DNA of 50,534 nucleotides, from contig JAJRQB010000100.1 of NCBI GenBank assembly GCA_024280485.1, positions 1 through 50,534 on the forward strand, read 5' to 3'. Positions 18,464-37,796 of the stretch are shown here, in pieces. The notes beneath the pieces were generated by a model. That model saw only the letters and a list, made by a program, of their open reading frames with translations. It was not told the DNA's origin and did no database searches. Source of the DNA: Deltaproteobacteria bacterium. GTDB lineage: Bacteria; Desulfobacterota; Desulfuromonadia; Desulfuromonadales; Geopsychrobacteraceae. The position numbers were made by a program, and so were the translations under genes. The stretch's first letter is position 1; every line of letters begins with the position of its first letter.

Positions 18464-19666
18464 TTAGAAATACCAGCGCAGCAGCAGACCACCGCTATCA
18501 CCTGCCGTGCCGAATTCGGATTGTGGAATTGAAACCGTTGGCGTCAGAGTCTGTGGCTTCTTGCCGAAATTGAGACTGTAAAAGAGATCCAGGCTTAGAT
18601 TGTCGCCGAGCGAAAAAAGAATCTGCGGGCGTAACAGGGTCGAGTCATCCTCCAGGTTTCTGATCAGCAGGCCGGTGAGGGTCACAAGGGGGTGAAGCTC
18701 CCAAGAGGGGCCGAGCAGAAGGTACTGTTGACCCAGCAGGAAGGAGAGCCCTTCAGCGAGAGGTGCTGACGAGATTGCGGCAAGATAGTCGGCCGGGTCC
18801 TCAGCGCCGGCGCCGTTATGCAGATATTCTGCAAGCATGATAATTCCGCTGTCGAAACGGTACCATAGCTCCAGGGCGCCGATAGCGAAGTTGTCATGCA
18901 GATCCCCGCCGGGAAGCCCACTGTTTTTGCCGTTGTAATGACTGATCTCCCCCTTGACACCAAGCGGGCCGAGACTGCCAGCTAAACCTAGCCCTATCAT
19001 TTCCCGATCACGTAGAACTCCACCAATCCCGAGCAGATCGATACCATTATGGTTGTCCGAGAAGGTCAGCAGGTAGCTGTTGTTGTCGGATTCATCACCG
19101 AAAACCAGTGTCCCGCCGATCTGACCACCGAGGCCGAAATAGTGCACTCCATGCAAGGCATCGACGCCCGGTCGGGTATCGGTATCGAGCGCCGAAGGTG
19201 AAAAGGGAGCGACGATGTCGAGGGGTGAGAAAATTGCGATGCGGCCGAAACCGACCGCCTGCCTGCCGATTTTCCAGTCGAAACTATTGATCGTCCCTTT
19301 CAGCGAAAGACGATCGATACCGACCTGGTTTGACCAGCGGTGGCCGCGTTTCCAGCTCTGCTCAAGGTCGCCTCTGCGGTTCGGTGAGTCGGTCGGCAGG
19401 GCAACCTGTCCCGGCGGGTCGCTGTAGAGCAGCAGGTTGTCGAGCGCAAAATCGAATTCAAACGCATCGTTTATCCGGGTTTTTAGATTAATTCTCAGGC
19501 TGTTGGCCGAGAAAAACCCACTCTTCAAGGATGAATCGGGGGACTTGTCGTAAGCAAGATCGAGGGTCTTCAGGTGCCCACTGACAACTGCCTCCTGCAA
19601 CGGACTTGAAAAAACCGGCAAGGCAGTTGCGAGGAGCAGGGTAGGGATGAGGAGCAGTCGGATCAT
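18464..19666 (-). CDS. Outer-membrane beta-barrel protein
   Basis: A 400-residue product with a cleavable signal peptide (LLLIPTLLLATALPVFS). It has many alternating-hydrophobicity strands and ends in WYF, the usual outer-membrane barrel C-terminus recognised by the BAM complex. It resembles alginate/DUF1302-type porins in length and in strand motifs such as DWKIGRQAVGFGR. Its start codon overlaps the stop of the ATPase gene by four bases (ATGA), with AGGAGA upstream, so it is translated with an ABC transporter. That context suggests an outer-membrane exit or acceptor for the transported cargo rather than a general pore, which is inference. Confidence 0.85.
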   Translation of the reverse strand: MIRLLLIPTLLLATALPVFSSPLQEAVVSGHLKTLDLAYDKSPDSSLKSGFFSANSLRINLKTRINDAFEFDFALDNLLLYSDPPGQVALPTDSPNRRGDLEQSWKRGHRWSNQVGIDRLSLKGTINSFDWKIGRQAVGFGRIAIFSPLDIVAPFSPSALDTDTRPGVDALHGVHYFGLGGQIGGTLVFGDESDNNSYLLTFSDNHNGIDLLGIGGVLRDREMIGLGLAGSLGPLGVKGEISHYNGKNSGLPGGDLHDNFAIGALELWYRFDSGIIMLAEYLHNGAGAEDPADYLAAISSAPLAEGLSFLLGQQYLLLGPSWELHPLVTLTGLLIRNLEDDSTLLRPQILFSLGDNLSLDLFYSLNFGKKPQTLTPTVSIPQSEFGTAGDSGGLLLRWYF

Positions 19667-20355
19667 CCGATCTCCTGCTGAATATCGCTCTCAAGCCGAC
19701 CATCACGCAGGCTGATCACCCGTTCGGCATGGGCGATCACCAGCGGGTCGTGTGAGCTGAAGAGGAAGGTCGTGCCCTTATCCCGGTTCAGTCTGCGCAT
19801 CAGTTGCAGCAGGTCCTCGGCGGTGCTTGAGTCAAGATTGGCGGTCGGTTCGTCAGCCAGCACCACTGCCGGTTGCGGTGCAATGGCGCGGGCGATGGCG
19901 ACCCGTTGCTGCTGGCCGCCGGAGAGATCATTCGGCCGCCGGTCTTCGAGGCCGTCGATACCGAGCTCGGCAAAGATGGCGGAGATTCTCGTTCTGCGCT
20001 CCTTGGGCGCTATTCCCTGGAGCATCAGGGTGAATTCGGCATTCTCGGCGGCGGTTAAAACCGGGATCAGGTTGTAGGACTGAAAGATGAAGCCGATTCG
20101 CCTGAGACGGAAATCAGCCAGCCCCTTGGGGTTCATTTCACTGTAATCGTTGCCGTCGACCCTGACCAACCCTGCGGTGGGTGTATCGAGGGCACCGACG
20201 AGGTTCAGTACGGTCGTTTTGCCGCTACCGGACGGCCCGGCGAGGACGGCAAACTCACCGGCCTGGATCTCAAGGGTCAAGCCCTGAACCGCCGCGATCT
20301 TCTGACTGCCGAGTGGGTAGGTCTTGTTCAGGTTGTTCAGGCTGATCAGGGACAT
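19663..20355 (-). CDS. ABC transporter ATP-binding protein, LolD/MacB type
   Basis: A 230-residue cytoplasmic ATPase. Walker A GPSGSGKT (40-47), Q-loop FQSYN, signature LSGGQ (144-148), Walker B VVLADEP with catalytic Glu169 and the H-loop SSHD are intact. The family powers mechanotransmission transporters such as LolCDE and MacB. The two permeases needed lie upstream in the same operon. It differs in sequence from the LolD at 34729-35406, so it probably serves a separate transporter. Confidence 0.93.
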   Translation of the reverse strand: MSLISLNNLNKTYPLGSQKIAAVQGLTLEIQAGEFAVLAGPSGSGKTTVLNLVGALDTPTAGLVRVDGNDYSEMNPKGLADFRLRRIGFIFQSYNLIPVLTAAENAEFTLMLQGIAPKERRTRISAIFAELGIDGLEDRRPNDLSGGQQQRVAIARAIAPQPAVVLADEPTANLDSSTAEDLLQLMRRLNRDKGTTFLFSSHDPLVIAHAERVISLRDGRLESDIQQEIG

Positions 20356-20388
20356 GGCAAATTCTTTCTTGCTGGTTTCATGTTATTT

Positions 20389-20484
20389 CCCTCTCCCTGA
20401 GGGAGAGGGTCAGGGTGAGGGGGGTGACTTGGTCCAATAATCCCCTCATCTGGTCTGCAGCCACCTTCTCCCTGAGGGAGAAGG
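20389..20484. repeat. REP-type palindrome doublet
   Basis: Two palindromes lie head to head: CCCTCTCCC-TGA-GGGAGAGGG (20389-20409) and CCTTCTCCC-TGA-GGGAGAAGG (20464-20484), with GGTGAGGGG and CCCCTCAT forming inner complementary flanks. This G/C-rich 'ctctccctgagggagag' pattern is a widespread extragenic palindrome type. It fills most of the 153-base gap between the second permease and the ATPase, splitting an otherwise tightly packed operon, and may modulate relative expression. Confidence 0.8.
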
Positions 20485-20508
20485 GTTTCATGGGAGGAGA
20501 GTACGATA

Positions 20509-21759
20509 TCAATGATGGCGCATCGCTACCGCCGGTGCGATCCGCGCCGCCTTGGCGGCAGGGTAAAGGGATGCGACAACCGACAACAGCAGAACATAAA
20601 TGGATATCTGTAGCATGTAAACGGTATCCCAGGCCGCGCGCATGACCGGGTTGAAGACTACACCACCGAATTCCATGGTCTCTGGAATGAAGTCGCGCAG
20701 GTCGATCCCGATTTCTACCAGATACCAGGTCGCGAGGGCGCCGAGAATGTTGCCGAACAGCATCGAAACCGAACCGAGTAGAAAGGCTTCAGTCATCACA
20801 GTTGCTCTCAATCTTCCCGGGGTGGCGCCGACCGCCAGGATAACCCCGAATTCCCGAATCCGTTCCATGACCGACATCAGCAGGGTGTTAACCACCCCGA
20901 TCGTCACGATGAGGACGATAATCAGGAAAATGAACTTCTGGCTGGCGTAATCGAGCTTGATGGCATTAGCCAAGTTGGCCATGGCCAGCTCCCAGCTGAC
21001 AGCATTGAGTTCTGATCCCGGTGGGAGCATGTCGGCGATGAGGGGGATCAATCTCTGTTCCAGATCCGGATTCTCGAGGATGATCGCCAATTCGTGGATC
21101 GCATCGATCTGACCGGTTATCGCCGCCGCACGCTGGCGGCCAACCATAACCAGGGAACTGTCGACCTCGCGGATGCCAGATTTGACGACTCCACGGATCC
21201 GCAACAGCTCACTGACCAACTGGCCTTCAGGCCCTTGAGCGGTAAAGACAAACTTGTTACCGACCTTCAGTTTGAGTTCGGTCAGCAGGCGGCTACCGAC
21301 CAGCGCGTCGCGACCATCGAGGGTTTTGATTAGAGCTGGCGCGTCGATATTCTTCAGCAGGGGGTTGATGGCGTTTTCGGCGACCGGATCGATACCGGTC
21401 AGCATGACGCCGCGGCTCTCACGGCTCGATTGGGCCAGCCCTGGCAGATAGAGACGCGGCAGCACCGCTTTTACCCCGTCGAGTGCGGCAATCCTGTGTT
21501 TCAGATCGACCATCGCCCCCATCTTCTCCAGGTCCCAGAACAGACGGTCATCGCGTGAGGTAACATAATCACCCCGGTAGACCGCAATATGGCCCGAACC
21601 GGAACGCACCCCGCTGTCGACCATCTGGGCATAGACCCCGAAAGAGAGGTTGTGAAAGGCCTGAACCAGCATCAGGCTGAAGCTCATAGCGACGATCGTG
21701 ATCAGGGTGCGGCGTCGGTTGCGCCAGACATTGCGCCAGGCCAGGGTCAGGATCTCCAT
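20509..21759 (-). CDS. ABC transporter permease, FtsX/MacB family
   Basis: A 416-residue inner-membrane protein. It has an N-terminal transmembrane helix after the typical WRNVWRNRRRTLITI motif, a periplasmic domain of about 220 residues, and three C-terminal helices forming the FtsX core (about 270-405). The EFGVILAVGATPGRL coupling helix contacts the ATPase. Such permeases move substrates from the outer leaflet of the inner membrane by mechanotransmission (LolC/E, MacB). It begins two bases after the first permease's stop, with AGGGAGG upstream. Paired with the next-door permease it should form a heterodimer. Confidence 0.9.
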   Translation of the reverse strand: MEILTLAWRNVWRNRRRTLITIVAMSFSLMLVQAFHNLSFGVYAQMVDSGVRSGSGHIAVYRGDYVTSRDDRLFWDLEKMGAMVDLKHRIAALDGVKAVLPRLYLPGLAQSSRESRGVMLTGIDPVAENAINPLLKNIDAPALIKTLDGRDALVGSRLLTELKLKVGNKFVFTAQGPEGQLVSELLRIRGVVKSGIREVDSSLVMVGRQRAAAITGQIDAIHELAIILENPDLEQRLIPLIADMLPPGSELNAVSWELAMANLANAIKLDYASQKFIFLIIVLIVTIGVVNTLLMSVMERIREFGVILAVGATPGRLRATVMTEAFLLGSVSMLFGNILGALATWYLVEIGIDLRDFIPETMEFGGVVFNPVMRAAWDTVYMLQISIYVLLLSVVASLYPAAKAARIAPAVAMRHH

Positions 21760-21761
21760 CT

Positions 21762-22991
21762 TTAATCCTCCCTGATCGCTGCGACCGGTTGCAGTTTGGC
21801 AGCTCGTCGCGCCGGCAGGAAACCGGCCAGCAGCGAAACCAGCAACAGCATGTAGGCCGGGTCGATGAAATTACGTTGCTCGAAAATCGCCCTGAGGTGC
21901 GGTTGGATGGTCCCTCCGGCATAGGTCACCGGGGTGATCCAGGAGGAGAGATCGAAACCGACCAGCGACATGTAAAGGCTCAGCAGCAGGCCGACAACCA
22001 AACCGAGGGCGGTGCCGAGCAGGCCGAGGAGAAATGATTCGAGCAGAACCACCAGCCTGACCTGTTGCGGGCGCAGGCCGAGCGCCATCAAAATACCGAA
22101 TTCGCGGGTGCGCTCCATCACCGACATGAACACGGTATTGAGGATACCCAGGCCGGTCGCGAAGTAGAGGATGATTACAAAGATAAAACGGCTGACATCA
22201 AAGGAGGCGATCGCCTCGCGCATCTCCGGCAGCAGTTCCCCCCAGTCGGTAGCGATCAGTCCGTCTGGCAGATAGGAGTTAAGTCTTTGCGCATCTTCTG
22301 CCGCCATCAAGGGATCTTTGACTGATAGAGCGATTTCATGGATCTTTCCCTTAAGCACCATGACCTCTTGCAGCCACTGCTGCGGGACCAGAACCAGGCC
22401 GTTGTCATGCCCCGCATGACCGGTGCGGAAGATGGCACGAACGGTCAGCAGATCATTGCCGATGGAGCCATCGGCTGCCTGGGTGACGAAAATCAGCTCA
22501 TCACCTGGAGAGACCCCGAGTTTTTGCGCCAGAGAGGACCCGAGGACTGCACCAGTGTTATCCGTATCTGTTGGAAAGGCTCCGGCAATTAATTGTGAAT
22601 GCAGTTTGGTGACGCTCTTTTCATGCTCAGGCCTTATGCCGAGCAATTCGGCTGGATAGCTGCTCTCTGCATGCGAAACCAGCCCGAAGCCGCGCAATCT
22701 TTCGCTGACACCGCGGACCGCCTTGTCCTGTTGCAAGGCTTGTAGAAGTTCGGGGTCAGCCGTAAAGTTTTTATACATGTCCCGATCATCAAGGTAGCCG
22801 CTGGCGTTGATGACCAGATGGCCATGATACTGCTCGGTTGTCGAAGAGAGAATGTCGACCAGCATGCCGGAGAAGACACCGAGGGAGAGAATCAACAGGG
22901 AGAGAGAGACCACCATCGCCGACAGGGTCAGCAGGGTGCGGCGCCGGTTGCGCCACAGGTTACGGGATGCAAGTCGCAGCAGCATGGTCAT
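21762..22991 (-). CDS. ABC transporter permease, FtsX/MacB family
   Basis: A 409-residue paralogue of the adjacent permease, with the same RNLWRNRRRTLLTL start, large periplasmic domain and EFGILMALGLRPQQV coupling helix. Four membrane segments are expected. The start overlaps the stop of the LolA-like gene in an ATGA arrangement, so translation is coupled to that carrier. Two different permeases plus a LolD-like ATPase and a LolA-like protein imitate the LolCDE-A layout. The periplasmic domain lacks any catalytic signature. Confidence 0.9.
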   Translation of the reverse strand: MTMLLRLASRNLWRNRRRTLLTLSAMVVSLSLLILSLGVFSGMLVDILSSTTEQYHGHLVINASGYLDDRDMYKNFTADPELLQALQQDKAVRGVSERLRGFGLVSHAESSYPAELLGIRPEHEKSVTKLHSQLIAGAFPTDTDNTGAVLGSSLAQKLGVSPGDELIFVTQAADGSIGNDLLTVRAIFRTGHAGHDNGLVLVPQQWLQEVMVLKGKIHEIALSVKDPLMAAEDAQRLNSYLPDGLIATDWGELLPEMREAIASFDVSRFIFVIILYFATGLGILNTVFMSVMERTREFGILMALGLRPQQVRLVVLLESFLLGLLGTALGLVVGLLLSLYMSLVGFDLSSWITPVTYAGGTIQPHLRAIFEQRNFIDPAYMLLLVSLLAGFLPARRAAKLQPVAAIRED

Positions 22992-23719
22992 CGTTTTAAG
23001 TTACGCAAGGAGAAGAAACTCTTTTCGATTCCGATATTAAAGTCGAGTTCGGAATAACGGATGATAGTTCTTTCCTCTGGATTGTCGGTCGGCTGAATCG
23101 TCAAGCGCAGCGGGATAACGCGCTCATCAATCCGTTTGACCTCATCGAAAATCAACTCGCGAACCTTGACCATCTCCTCGTCGAAATAGGCGACCGTCCC
23201 CGGCACTTCCAGCGGCAGCAGGATTTCATAAACGATTTTTCCCCAGACCACCGCAGCCTCAGGGTTGGGTATGCATTCGATCAACAGATGTTCTTTGGTC
23301 TCTTCCAGCAGAGAAAAGCTGTATTATTCATCGATCTTGTTCGCCTTGACCAGGTCATTATTGGTGATGTGGCTCCCCATCCAGGCCCCACCCATCATCG
23401 ACGGCGGCACCTTGATCACCCGATCGACCTTCGGCAGGTAGTTCCAGACCTGCTTGTCGACCTTCAGGGTTGTGACATCCCGCTCTTTAGCCGGTTCAAT
23501 GATCCGAATCAGAAAATGATCCCGTCCCAGCGACCAGGAATCCATCACCAGCGAACGCTCCCAATGCTCGGAGCGGATGCTCATCTCCATGCGAGATTTG
23601 GATGAGAGTCCCATGTACTGTTGTTCAACCTTGCGCACCAGAGCCTGAAGGTCTGTTGCCCAGAGTGAATGGGGAAATAATATCAGTGAAAAAAACAAGA
23701 ATACAGAGAGTTTAATCAT
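22988..23719 (-). pseudogene. LolA-like outer-membrane lipoprotein-sorting protein, interrupted by an in-frame TAA
   Basis: The full frame encodes a periplasmic carrier of the LolA-like type (about 243 residues): a signal peptide (FLFFSLILFPHSLWA), then the family motifs KVPPSMMGGAWMGSHITNNDLVK and a C-terminal beta-sheet region. Codon 132 is TAA (23326-23324), directly after KANKIDE. The same frame continues past it without shift (YSFSLLEETKEHL) to the natural stop overlapping the permease start. I take ATG 23719, preceded by AAGGA, as the start. Either the carrier is inactivated by a nonsense mutation, the base is a sequencing error, or there is readthrough. TAA excludes selenocysteine and pyrrolysine. 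Expression of the coupled permease could be reduced. Confidence 0.85.
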
Positions 23720-33470: not shown

Positions 33471-34721
33471 ATGTCATTTGAATGGTTCGTGAGTCTGCGC
33501 TACTTGCGCGCAAAGCGTAAACAAACCTTTATCTCGGTGATCTCCTTCATATCAATCTTTGGGGTGATGTTGGGTGTTGCAGCACTTATCCTGGTATTGG
33601 CTGTGATGACCGGGTTCACCAACGGTGTCCGGCAACAGATTCTTGGCAACGTTCCTCACGTCCTGGTGCAGCGCTTTGGTGAGGGGATCAGCGAGCGCCA
33701 GGAACTGATCGATGCCGCCCTTAAGATTCCTGATGTTGTTTCGGTGACTCCGTTTGTTTCGCGTGAAGCAATGCTGTTGTCACACGGCAATGTTGCGGCA
33801 GTCAGTGTCAAGGGGGTCGAAATTGGGCATAAAGTCTTCGGCCAGAAGTTGTTGAAAAGGGCAGAGATTGATCCCCTCAACGGTGTCTTCGGCGACAATC
33901 TTGAGCGTCCCGGCATTATCATTGGCCTCGATACTGCGACCAGCCTTGGAGTTGCCGTCGGCGACAATATCAATGTAATCCCCCCACTGTTCAACATTAC
34001 CCCTTTCGGTATGATCCCCAAGATGAAGCCGTTTCGGATTGTCGGTATTTTTGAAAAACCGAGTAGCCTGATCGATAGCTTCTTCGCTTACATAAATCTT
34101 GAAACAGCACAGAAATTCTTTGAATCTCCTGGGGAAGTCACAGGCATTGAGATCGAAGTGAAACGCTTTGATCAGGCTCCGGAGATCTCTGCTGAGTTGA
34201 GCCGTCAGTTCAGCTTCCCTTATATCATCCGTCCCTGGCAGAGTCTGTATGGCTCATTTTTGAGTGCGCTTAAGTTGGAAAAGCTTGGATTGTTCATCGT
34301 GCTGGCAATCATTGTATTGGTCGCGGCATTTAATATCGCCACGACCCTGATCATGGTTGTCATGGAGAAGAATCGCGACATCGCAATTTTACGAGCCTTG
34401 GGAGCAAATGCCCGCAGTATCATGAAGATCTTTATTTTCGAAGGGGCGATCATCGGCGTATTAGGGACATCTCTCGGAACAGTCTTTGGTGTAGGTTTGG
34501 CCCATTATGCCGACTCACTGATCAAGTTTCTTGAAGCGACTTTTGGTATTCAAATTTTCGATCAAGCAGTCTACGGTATGGAGCGTTTTCCCTCTGAAAT
34601 TGTCATTTCTGATGTACTTGCTGTCATTTTAATTGCGCTTGCCATTTCTCTGGCCGCGACTGTTTACCCAGCTTGGCGGGCCTCACGCATGGACCCGGCC
34701 GAAGCGCTGCGTTACGAATAG
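33471..34721 (+). CDS. lolC: Lipoprotein-releasing ABC transporter permease (LolC/LolE family)
   Basis: A 416-residue inner-membrane permease with a first transmembrane helix after RYLRAKRKQTFISVIS, a periplasmic domain of about 210 residues and three C-terminal helices with the NRDIAILRALGANARS coupling motif. It extracts outer-membrane lipoproteins from the inner membrane and delivers them to LolA. Only one permease precedes LolD here, where gamma-proteobacteria have lolC and lolE. Such single-permease systems are called LolF. The periplasmic segment PPLFNITPFGMIPKMKPFRI sits where a LolA-binding 'hook' would be. Annotation as LolF-like would also be defensible. Confidence 0.92.
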   Translation: MSFEWFVSLRYLRAKRKQTFISVISFISIFGVMLGVAALILVLAVMTGFTNGVRQQILGNVPHVLVQRFGEGISERQELIDAALKIPDVVSVTPFVSREAMLLSHGNVAAVSVKGVEIGHKVFGQKLLKRAEIDPLNGVFGDNLERPGIIIGLDTATSLGVAVGDNINVIPPLFNITPFGMIPKMKPFRIVGIFEKPSSLIDSFFAYINLETAQKFFESPGEVTGIEIEVKRFDQAPEISAELSRQFSFPYIIRPWQSLYGSFLSALKLEKLGLFIVLAIIVLVAAFNIATTLIMVVMEKNRDIAILRALGANARSIMKIFIFEGAIIGVLGTSLGTVFGVGLAHYADSLIKFLEATFGIQIFDQAVYGMERFPSEIVISDVLAVILIALAISLAATVYPAWRASRMDPAEALRYE

Positions 34722-34728
34722 GAAAACC

Positions 34729-35406
34729 ATGATTCGGATCAGCGGGTTAAATAAGTTGTTCTCTACGGTCAATGGCCAGTTGCAGGTTTTGCACGATATT
34801 GATCTGCATGTTGAGGTTGGCCAGCGGATTGCGGTGGTTGGCAGTTCTGGGGCAGGCAAGACAACTTTGATGCATATTATGGGTGGTCTTGATCATCCGA
34901 GTGATGGTGAAGTCCTGTTTGAAGGGAAAAACCTGTTTTCATTAAAGGGTTCAGAACTCGATGCTTTTCGAAATCGTGCTATCGGTTTTGTTTTTCAGTT
35001 TCATCAGCTCCTGCCGGAATTTTCAGCACTGGAAAATGTGATGATGCCATTGTTGATTGCCGGTCAATCACGTAAACAGGCACGAATTCCAGCGACTGAA
35101 ATTCTAACTGAGGTTGGTCTGAAAGAACGTCTTGACCATAAGCCTGGCGCCTTGTCAGGCGGGGAACAACAGCGAGTAGCCATCGCGCGGGCCCTGATTC
35201 AAAAGCCACGGCTACTATTGGCTGATGAACCGACCGGAAATCTTGATCGTTGCACCTCTGAAGAAATATTTGGTTTGCTCGATAAATTGCATTGTAGCCA
35301 TAATCTGACGATGGTTATCGTAACGCACAACGACCAGATTGCGGCACAGATGGACCGGGTATTACGGATCGAGGATGGCCGGATCACGGCCGATGATCTG
35401 AATTGA
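34729..35406 (+). CDS. lolD: Lipoprotein-releasing ABC transporter ATPase
   Basis: A 225-residue ATPase that drives LolC/E or LolF. Walker A GSSGAGKT (38-45), Q-loop [10 protein letters not shown], signature LSGGEQQR and Walker B LLLADEP are intact. ATG 34729 follows the permease stop by 7 bases with AGGA overlapping that stop, and is the only start that excludes the extended frame upstream. The [19 protein letters not shown] sequence is the characteristic LolD motif, supporting the housekeeping role. Confidence 0.96.
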
Positions 35407-35480
35407 AGTTGAACTACCCGGTGCAAATCCCTATAATCGCTCTTTTGCCGCCTATTTCGTTAAAAGGAAATCTAGCTTTG

Positions 35481-37796
35481 ATGATTCGCCACCTCTTTCT
35501 GACCTGCCTGATCGTACTTCTGATTGTGCCTCTGGCATATGCCGATAGCATAAAAGTGACTGACATCCAGTTGGAAGGGAATGAGCGTGTTGATGGTGCC
35601 AGGGTGCGTGCTGTCATGACTGTTCGCCCTGACAGAGAGATGACATATGATGATATAGACCGCGATCTTCAGGCGATCTTCAAACTTGGTCATTTCGATG
35701 ATATTTCAGCTGAGCTTCGAGGTGAGGGGAGCGAGAAAGTTTTAGTTTTTATCGTCCACGAGCGTCCACTGGTGCGAGAGATCCGTTTTGAAGGCGCAAA
35801 AAAGCTGACTGAAGAGAAACTGCGCCCTCTGGTAACCCAACGGGCACCGGAAATCTACGATCCCGTCCAGGTAAAAAAGAGTGTCGCTGCTCTTGAGGAG
35901 AACTATCACGTTGAAGGCTATTATGCGGTCAAGATCACGCCTCAGTTGAAAACCGACGAGCAAAATGAAAGTTTGCTGACCTTCAATATTGAGGAGGGAT
36001 CAAAAATCCTGATTGATGAAATTTCTTTTGAGGGCAATCAGGCTCTGAATGCGAAAACTTTGGCAGCAGCAATGGTGACCAAAAAACGTTGGATCTGGTC
36101 ATGGATCACCGGTCGAGGCACCTATAAGGCTGATCAGATTCAGTATGATCTGGACTTGCTGACGGCGCTTTATTACGATCGTGGCTATATGGATATCAAG
36201 ATCAAGCAACCACAGATCAGCATGGTTGACAATGATACGCTGATGAAGCTGCTGATAGAAATCGACGAAGGTCAACAGTATCGGACCGGCGAGCTGCGGA
36301 TCACTGGTGATCTGATTAAGCCGCGCAAGGAGCTTAACACCCTGTTAACACTCAAAGAGGGTGAGATTTTCAGCCGCTCTGAACTTCGCAGTTCTGTGCT
36401 TGCTTTGACCGATCTTTACGCCGATAAGGGTTATGCAAATGCCAACGTGGTTCCTTTTACCAGCAAAGACCCTGATGAACTTAAGATTTCACTGAAATTA
36501 AATATTGAACAGGGTGAACTGATTCATATTGAAAAGATCAACATAAGCGGTAACACCATTACTCGTGACAAGGTCCTGCGCCGTGAACTGACTTTAATCG
36601 AGGGTGACCTTTATAGCGCGACAAAGATAAAGACAAGTCGTAATCGTTTACGTAATCTCGGTTTCTTTGAAGAGGTCAACGTTTCGACAAGTGCGGGGAG
36701 CAGCAGCGATAAGAACGAACTTAATATCGAGGTCTCTGAAAAACCAACGGGCAGTTTCACTATCGGTGCCGGCTATTCGTCAGTCGACCAGCTCATAGCC
36801 CAGGGATCGATATCGCAGGGTAATTTTATGGGTTATGGCCTTAACCTGAAGGCCTCGGCAACGCTCGGCGGAGCCTCACAACTATATAGTGTTGGTCTGA
36901 CCGATCCTTACTTCCTTGATACTCGTTGGACGGCTGGCTTTGATCTTTATAAGACTGAGCGGGATTGGACTGATTTTACCGAGAAAGCGACTGGTGGAGC
37001 TCTCAAACTAGGTCATCCGTTGGGACGCTTTTCCCGTGGTCTTGTAACCTATCGTTATGAAGAAAAAGAGATTTTAGATGTTAGCGATGCCGCCAGCTTT
37101 GAAATTAAACAGCAGGCTGGAACTTCCATTCTTTCATCCCTGACCGGGTCCTTACAGCGCAATACAACCGATTATCATATGGATCCTTCCCGGGGTGGTA
37201 TTACCTCTTTCTCTGCAGAATACGCAGGCCTTGGTGGCACGGATAAGTTTGCCAAGTTTGAGTTCAGCCACCGTCATTTCTTTCCACTGTTCTGGAGTAC
37301 TGTCCTCTCTATCAACGGGAATCTTGGTTATATCATCAAAACGAGCGATGATGAGATACCGATCAGCGAAAAAATCTTTCTGGGTGGATTACGTTCAATT
37401 CGTGGTTTCGATACACGTGAAGTCGGCCCTATGGATCCAGCAATCCCCGCGATTCCTGCGGATCTTGATCCTGTGGATCCGACGGTTATCTTGGTCCCCG
37501 CAGTTCCTGGGGTTGATGCTTCATTTGTCGGTGGTGAAAAAGCTGCTTTCTTCAATCTTGAGTACTTTTTCCCGATCAATAGACAATACAAACTTAAAGG
37601 TCTGTTTTTTGTTGATGTCGGCAATGCCTGGCGTGAGACTGAAGCCTATCTTTCTGATATGCGCTACAGTGCCGGTTACGGTATTCGTTGGGCGAGCCCT
37701 TTGGGCCCACTCAGGTTTGAGTGGGGGTATAACCTTTTCCCCCGTGATGGCGAGAAGCCTTCGGTCTTCGAATTTAGTATTGGTTCCTTCTTTTAA
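35481..37796 (+). CDS. bamA: Outer-membrane protein assembly factor BamA
   Basis: A 771-residue Omp85 protein inserting beta-barrels into the outer membrane. I chose ATG 35481 because the signal peptide starts there (MIRHLFLTCLIVLLIVPLAYA). The TTG 78 bases upstream is unlikely. Five POTRA domains occupy roughly residues 22-418 and the 16-strand barrel 420-771. The L6 lock motif is present as IRGF near residue 640. Just after it is an unusual Pro/Asp/Val-rich insert of about 30 residues (starting GPMDPAIPAIPADLD) before the GGEK segment. The protein ends in an aromatic residue (SFF). Confidence 0.95.
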   Translation: MIRHLFLTCLIVLLIVPLAYADSIKVTDIQLEGNERVDGARVRAVMTVRPDREMTYDDIDRDLQAIFKLGHFDDISAELRGEGSEKVLVFIVHERPLVREIRFEGAKKLTEEKLRPLVTQRAPEIYDPVQVKKSVAALEENYHVEGYYAVKITPQLKTDEQNESLLTFNIEEGSKILIDEISFEGNQALNAKTLAAAMVTKKRWIWSWITGRGTYKADQIQYDLDLLTALYYDRGYMDIKIKQPQISMVDNDTLMKLLIEIDEGQQYRTGELRITGDLIKPRKELNTLLTLKEGEIFSRSELRSSVLALTDLYADKGYANANVVPFTSKDPDELKISLKLNIEQGELIHIEKINISGNTITRDKVLRRELTLIEGDLYSATKIKTSRNRLRNLGFFEEVNVSTSAGSSSDKNELNIEVSEKPTGSFTIGAGYSSVDQLIAQGSISQGNFMGYGLNLKASATLGGASQLYSVGLTDPYFLDTRWTAGFDLYKTERDWTDFTEKATGGALKLGHPLGRFSRGLVTYRYEEKEILDVSDAASFEIKQQAGTSILSSLTGSLQRNTTDYHMDPSRGGITSFSAEYAGLGGTDKFAKFEFSHRHFFPLFWSTVLSINGNLGYIIKTSDDEIPISEKIFLGGLRSIRGFDTREVGPMDPAIPAIPADLDPVDPTVILVPAVPGVDASFVGGEKAAFFNLEYFFPINRQYKLKGLFFVDVGNAWRETEAYLSDMRYSAGYGIRWASPLGPLRFEWGYNLFPRDGEKPSVFEFSIGSFF

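Follow-up and report, generated by a model that had tools for sequence, protein, structure and literature searches.

A conserved five-gene operon combining a Lol-like ABC engine, a periplasmic carrier and a predicted porin-type barrel as a candidate exporter of lipidic molecules

Little is known of how greasy molecules other than lipopolysaccharide and lipoproteins reach and cross the outer membrane. Lol-type ATP-binding cassette (ABC) engines, which belong to type VII, extract lipidic cargo from the inner membrane's outer leaflet and pass it to a carrier of the LolA fold. Among the closest described systems, AmeABCD of Castellaniella defragrans comprises a resistance-nodulation-division (RND) pump, a DUF1302 protein, a DUF1329 protein and a fourth protein and is described as an efflux set for apolar monoterpenes (PMC6394551), and the Pseudomonas putida exporter genes PP_0765/PP_0766, with PP_2018/PP_2019, combine DUF1302 and DUF1329 proteins with an RND pump (PMC10866462). 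The LolA paralogues of Flavobacterium johnsoniae (PMC11885536) and LolA3 of Porphyromonas gingivalis (PMC13103446) also rank among the nearest published systems. A literature search that covered a minority of subscription papers and no bioRxiv preprints found no description of an ABC version built from five genes, one of them for a barrel of the porin type. Here, we describe such an operon in a stretch of 50,534 nucleotides (the window; contig JAJRQB010000100.1 of assembly GCA_024280485.1) from a deltaproteobacterium of the family Geopsychrobacteraceae. The operon is real and conserved, and the architecture proposed in a first-pass annotation of the window, a carrier, two permeases, an ATPase and a barrel, stands. 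We read it, with a probability of roughly 0.6, as a dedicated exporter that uses ATP to move an amphiphilic or lipidic molecule from the inner to the outer membrane, with a LolCDE-like engine, a carrier and a barrel acceptor. The analysis shows which genes are present, how they are conserved and coupled across genomes, which folds are predicted, and that both ABC and RND engines occur beside related carrier-barrel pairs; the direction of transport, the permease heterodimer, the hand-overs, the passage through the barrel and the class of cargo are inferred.

The five genes, listed from carrier to barrel, are as follows:

22988..23719, reverse strand: carrier gene, PF17131 (LolA_like), interrupted in the window's genome
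21762..22991, reverse strand: permease 1, with the FtsX C-terminal domain and the MacB_PCD periplasmic domain of Pfam
20509..21759, reverse strand: permease 2, with the FtsX domain of Pfam and no MacB_PCD match
19663..20355, reverse strand: ABC ATPase, PF00005 (ABC_tran), 113.6 bits
18464..19666, reverse strand: outer-membrane beta-barrel, ending in LLLRWYF, no Pfam family

The first-pass annotation had described five genes on one strand, with a barrel protein ending in WYF, and all were found at these coordinates, as were the junctions it had given from carrier to barrel, namely ATGA, 2 bases, a gap (153 bases) and a second ATGA.

The five genes form a conserved unit, more than chance would give. 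PF17131 was found in 49 of 60 genomes, the window's own included, and 60 of the 64 matches of at least 119 bits were taken as loci, leaving out the window itself, G018:C163, G058:C61 and G027:C221; one of these 60 loci lies in the window's own genome. A carrier of at least 50% identity by tblastn was present in 31 of the 60, and 28 of these 31 carry the five genes in the same order, with two of the others (L068 and L071) running off the contig and the third (L083) rearranged. The rearranged copy (L083/L142) has a fragment of permease 1 followed by a fragment of the barrel beside an uninterrupted carrier.

The class was surveyed with an even draw of 194 genomes, applying thresholds on the expectation value (E) of 1e-10 or less for the barrel profile, 1e-30 or less for the carrier and 1e-50 or less for permease 1. 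The barrel and carrier profiles matched the identical 58 genomes, a coincidence of about 1e-50 by counting, which ignores shared descent and is not a significance. Carrier and barrel share contig and strand in 49 of the 58, at a distance of 2,978–4,833 bases in 48 of them and of 97 bases in G162, where the two are adjacent and the permease-permease-ATPase trio stands on another contig. They lie on different contigs in the remaining nine, eight of which fit breaks at contig ends, and G076 looks split, with carrier and both permeases apart from ATPase and barrel. The carrier of G076 forms the last part of an open frame of 694 residues (L183:3066-5150, forward strand) without another Pfam domain, which may be a fusion or a chance frame. 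Permease 1 was matched in 61 genomes, the same 58 plus G081, G092 and G174.

A further scan covered named genomes, with the analysis limited to the best 80 of 185 confirmed places and with bin names as given by the depositors, which may be wrong. Most of these 80 loci belong to Desulfuromonadales, including the cultured strains Malonomonas rubra DSM 5091 at L127 and Geothermobacter hydrogeniphilus HR-1 at L112, and the remainder to bins called Acidobacteria, Vicinamibacteria, Gemmatimonadetes, Myxococcota and others; the five-gene order reaches the Acidobacteria and Myxococcota bins. Two permeases and the ATPase are present in 63 of the 80, at least 1.3 kb of sequence beyond the ATPase is available in 54 of these 63, and a barrel homologue comes next in 49 of the 54. 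The first-pass annotation had held that its reading would fall if the barrel were not kept beside the transporter in other genomes, and these surveys show the barrel retained there and the gene order conserved.

The engine was compared with solved structures by profile search. Permease 1 is nearest to LolF (E 4.2e-35), followed by LolE and then LolC, and permease 2 is nearest to LolF (8.8e-28) and LolE; MacB is weaker for both, and both align collinearly to LolF and LolE. Neither reaches the NCBIfam lolCE cut-off of 362.45 bits (144.1 and 120.2 bits), and the ATPase scores 199 bits against the LolD cut-off of 307.75, which the housekeeping LolD of the window also misses at 285.5. The ATPase (208.9), permease 2 (31.7) and permease 1 (48.2) stay below the MacB equivalog cut-off of 966 bits, and ATPase and permeases are separate genes, unlike the single chain of MacB. 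A tree of 33 permeases, in which 14 of 30 inner branches stay open, long branches are flagged and two permeases of L040 were left out, joins the window's housekeeping gene with Escherichia coli LolC and LolE in one branch (100/99), with the operon permeases outside, and sets the MacB-type rows apart on long, weakly placed branches (71/70). The permeases resemble LolF and LolE more than MacB and cluster with neither. Clustering with MacB, the other outcome that the first-pass annotation had seen as fatal to its reading, was not found, bearing in mind the weak placement of the MacB branch, and its label of a Lol/Mac-like system holds for the kind of engine, but not beyond it, as the permeases fail both cut-offs and the carrier fold is nearer a DUF1329 protein than LolA.

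The carrier gene carries one internal stop:

23324..23326, reverse strand: in-frame TAA inside the carrier, from its translation; whole-genome profile searches report one TAA here

Both halves pass the PF17131 gathering score of 30 bits (59.0 and 54.0 bits), and reading through gives 129.6 bits. In Pfam searches at E of 0.1 or less, the halves matched PF17131 only, with no match to LolA (PF03548) or to DUF1329 (PF07044). By eye, the N-terminus resembles a signal peptide, MIKLSVFLFFSLILFPHSLWA, and the best-conserved stretch is PPSMMGGAWMGSHITNDDLV.

A structural model was predicted from the uninterrupted copy of L100, with a predicted local distance difference test (pLDDT) score of 88.6, and places the carrier in the LolA/LolB fold class. 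When solved structures were searched with it, the nearest was 4z48, titled DUF1329 family protein (Z 26.0), followed by 3bk5 (25.7), 9tp6 (P. gingivalis LolA3; 25.7) and 3buu (23.4), with far weaker matches to P. gingivalis LolB (15.2) and to LolA proteins (13.1 and below). This ranking bears on a rival explanation, a specialised Lol pathway in which the engine extracts a subset of lipoproteins that the barrel flips to the cell surface. The kinship of the engine with LolF and LolE and the carrier's fold class would suit such a pathway, but the order of those scores, with DUF1329 ahead of LolB and LolA, the separate housekeeping LolA and LolC/E and the barrels of the same distant family that stand in RND loci (see below) argue against it, as does P. 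gingivalis LolA3, the carrier's structural relative, which interacts only weakly with LolB (PMC13103446); we deem it unlikely. The only LolA (PF03548) found in the window's genome lies outside the operon, on contig C12, and, as the first-pass annotation had proposed, housekeeping lol genes exist separately in the window, where the LolC/E gene at 33471-34721 scores 401.8 bits, above the lolCE cut-off of 362.45. At 33471-37796 on the forward strand, a LolD-like ATPase and then an Omp85/BamA-type gene (35403-37796, Omp85 match) come after this single LolC/E-type gene, making up a LolF-like housekeeping set joined to BamA.

The stop codon, which the first-pass annotation overlooked, raises the question of whether the system is dead or dying in the window's genome, with a broken carrier and intact followers, a situation compatible with an exporter elsewhere. 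As the carrier is split, the system may be off in this genome, and a pair of repetitive extragenic palindromic (REP)-like elements in the permease 2–ATPase gap can be read in the same sense. Against decay, the ratio of nonsynonymous to synonymous substitution rates (dN/dS) relative to L097, from the same genus, comes to 0.085 for the part of the carrier that precedes the stop, 0.096 for the part that follows it and about 0.11–0.17 for the other four genes, thus low throughout (0.085–0.165 over all five). Since it is low on both sides of the stop, the TAA is either recent or an assembly error. The reading frame is intact in L097, and the class-wide profile search found no internal stop in the other 57 carriers of the 58-genome set. 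Sequencing or assembly error is also conceivable in view of single breaks in other members, namely a TAG in permease 1 of G164 (C26) and an ATPase matched in two frames in G196 (L194). Decay in this genome is less likely than not. The gap that the first-pass annotation had called REP-bearing contains two palindromes:

20389..20409, no strand assigned: REP-like 21-nt palindrome, copy 1, permease 2–ATPase gap
20464..20484, no strand assigned: REP-like 21-nt palindrome, copy 2, permease 2–ATPase gap

They are spaced 75 nt apart in the 153 bases, and a search of the whole genome for their 15-nt core gave 31 places, compared with none for the reversed control. Because the corresponding gap of L097 spans only about 27 bases by locus coordinates, the repeats look inserted.

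The barrel was modelled with AlphaFold2 at a mean pLDDT of 93.7 and a predicted template modelling score of 0.88, yielding a confident porin-type model with about 18 strands, as counted by eye from its DSSP string. VIA-align Z scores were 24.5 to chitoporins, about 22–24 to OprD/Occ proteins, about 22 to AlgE and 20.6 to maltoporin, at about 10% identity, and the Occ/OprD chains superposed with a root-mean-square deviation of about 3 Å over 291–325 residues, which places the model in the OprD/AlgE-type fold. At E of 0.1 or less, the barrel matched no Pfam family, hence neither DUF1302 (PF06980) nor OprD/Occ nor Omp85, and a search of solved structures with its profile returned a single match, a transcription factor chain at E 1.3. 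One segment stands out:

19166..19258, reverse strand: codons of barrel residues 137–167, a 31-residue loop between strands 5 and 6

This loop is the best-conserved long segment of the barrel, with a mean information of 3.07 compared with 2.14 overall in 52 sequences. As the alternate turns are short, it is predicted to lie on the outer side, where it may fold into the lumen. Alignments with hhalign, made with no negative control, gave 94–97% with the barrels of other ABC-carrier loci, 81% with one DUF1302 member and 57% with RND-type barrels. Together with a GRQ..G motif in common with DUF1302 proteins, this points to a barrel that is distantly DUF1302-like in sequence.

The engines of the 60 LolA_like loci were then classified. 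An ABC engine was present in 42 (with a barrel in 38), an RND engine in 16 (15) and no visible engine in two (one). Six loci have no barrel, of which L051, L068 and L071 run off the contig, L083 is rearranged, and L042 and L085 are unexplained. Across the non-overlapping open reading frames of these loci, the barrel profile gave a single matching protein per locus in 51 loci at E below 0.01, and the engine classification had scored each of these 51 as barrel-bearing; barrels of RND loci and true DUF1302 proteins scored between about 1e-6 and 1e-2, and the first match of another kind 0.018. As the set was chosen by carrier, it tells which neighbour matches and leaves room for barrels that occur alone. 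The window's genome has six DUF1302 matches, each adjoining, on the same strand, one of six long LolA_like frames, and a second, different set of ABC engine, LolA_like carrier and barrel, with a single permease, stands on contig C33 (L098). The RND-engine relatives had escaped the first-pass annotation.

The carrier-barrel pair is the constant module of these loci, and in related loci an RND pump serves such a pair. Because two kinds of engine surround a similar pair, docking of carrier and barrel is predicted. We tentatively suggest, at clearly less than even odds, that a carrier of the LolA/LolB fold and a porin-type barrel of a DUF1302 superfamily constitute a general, engine-independent export module for type VII ABC or RND pumps that passes lipids via the barrel to the surface, separately from Lol, Lpt and Mce. 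The same kinship would allow an ABC counterpart of AmeABCD for the efflux of, or tolerance to, apolar small molecules, given the monoterpene efflux ascribed to AmeABCD (PMC6394551) and the distant DUF1302 relation of the barrel. A TetR-family gene upstream in six Acidobacteria-type loci (from neighbour clustering, one member identified) fits as well, but no Pfam match makes any of the five genes an AmeC, and a gene order kept across families and phyla is, in our judgement, more that of a standing trait than of a tolerance island. Such a system is quite improbable.

In the preferred reading of an exporter, permeases 1 and 2, probably as a heterodimer, and an ATPase dimer would make up an engine of the LolCDE kind that extracts the cargo from the inner membrane's outer leaflet, and the LolA/LolB-fold carrier would take it across the periplasm. 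The porin-type barrel would receive it at the outer membrane, replacing the LolB lipoprotein; because the set lacks a LolB, a dedicated barrel is the natural acceptor. It might then place the cargo in the outer leaflet or release it, and both lateral entry and passage through the lumen are conceivable. That engine, carrier and outer-membrane barrel make up a self-contained set, as the first-pass annotation put forward, is well supported, and the set represents a compact, genetically linked collection of all needed parts with an ATP engine.

The reverse direction, an importer or scavenger of extracellular lipids with the barrel working inward, would agree with the need for P. putida DUF1302/DUF1329 genes in Tween 20 metabolism (PMC10866462). 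The top-ranked solved barrels are porins, which would agree with it too. LolCDE, MacB and RND engines, on the other hand, work outward, and we consider import very improbable.

Several observations weigh against export as proposed. The window's own carrier is interrupted about half-way along the gene. In G081, G092 and G174, a permease-1-like gene is present, but neither carrier nor barrel was matched at the thresholds applied, and in L042 (RND) and L085 (ABC) the barrel is missing although no contig end would account for it. Five of the 54 named loci with room have no barrel next to the ATPase: in L168 and L179 it lies further on, on the other strand, and in L150, L166 and L177 none was seen. 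None of the Gemmatimonadetes-type bins (L166, L168, L170, L177 and L179) has the barrel next, although L170 ends too soon. Misassembly could account for the splits in G162 and G076. Finally, the annotated neighbours include no clear cargo gene, with DUF6178 in 20 of the 80 named loci, a methyltransferase in 12 and an OmpA-family protein in 10; the operon's own genes and shadow frames on the opposite strand make up the commonest neighbour families, and several frames recurring in 10–13 of the 80 loci were left unannotated.

Two candidates were rejected as obligate cargo. For hopanoids, squalene-hopene cyclase was found in 97 of the 194 class genomes but in 2 of the 58 operon genomes, and for type III polyketide lipids, PF02797 was found in 58 of 194 and in 22 of 58, and is absent from the window's own genome. 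A type III polyketide synthase is locally linked in two genomes, G023 (L052) and G162 (L135/L181). The carrier-barrel pair of G162 lies near this synthase, a flavin adenine dinucleotide (FAD) monooxygenase, a UbiE-type methyltransferase and an MMPL pump, and in L181 and L052 the synthase, an FAD monooxygenase, a YceI-like protein and an MMPL pump stand beside carrier-barrel genes; these neighbourhoods are possible phenolic-lipid clusters.

Just upstream of the operon in the window, a patatin-like phospholipase gene (PF01734; 23849-24751, forward strand) starts divergently. A scan for promoters and terminators stayed near shuffled sequence, with 5 promoters against a mean of 2.9 (standard deviation 1.7) and 6 terminators against 5.4 (2.1).

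Compared with LolCDE or LolF-LolD plus LolA, the operon has the same type VII ABC architecture, collinear permeases and a carrier of the predicted LolA/LolB fold class. It differs in failing the lolCE cut-off, in lacking LolB within the set, in having its own barrel and in using two different permeases, with a single LolC/E-type gene standing apart. When the two operon permeases are aligned with LolF, the hairpin that precedes the conserved VxG strand, presumably the LolA-binding Hook, seems to be shorter by three to five residues in each of them. MacAB-TolC has in common with the operon an FtsX-type permease with MacB_PCD, here permease 1, but ATPase and permeases of the operon are separate genes far below the MacB cut-off, neither MacA nor TolC is among the five, and the permeases fall outside the MacB-type branch, itself long and weakly placed.

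The Borrelia BBJ23-29 cluster likewise unites a LolA-like carrier, a MacB/Lol-like ABC engine and an outer-membrane barrel, but with an Omp85 barrel, a homodimeric single permease and tetratricopeptide-repeat proteins, compared with the predicted porin-type barrel and two permeases of the operon (PMC13078400). P. gingivalis LolA3 is akin through its structure, 9tp6, which ranks among those nearest the carrier. In Bacteroidota, a shortage of hemin or iron strongly induces operons that encode MMPL, outer membrane lipoprotein-sorting and hypothetical proteins (PMC10470040, PMC10434189); these MMPL plus LolA_like operons have an RND-type engine instead of an ABC engine, and their response may serve as a cargo lead for the RND version only.

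With the DUF1302-DUF1329-RND exporters, the operon has in common a LolA-superfamily periplasmic protein, an outer-membrane barrel and an inner-membrane engine. Its barrel appears distantly similar to theirs, including GRQ..G, and its modelled carrier is nearest in fold to a DUF1329 protein, but its engine is a two-permease ABC rather than an RND pump, its barrel falls below the DUF1302 model and its carrier halves match PF17131 only. The carrier-barrel pairs with RND engines link the operon to these published exporters, and it thereby ties together families that have been studied apart, namely Lol-type ABC engines, P. gingivalis LolA3 and the DUF1302/DUF1329/RND exporters.

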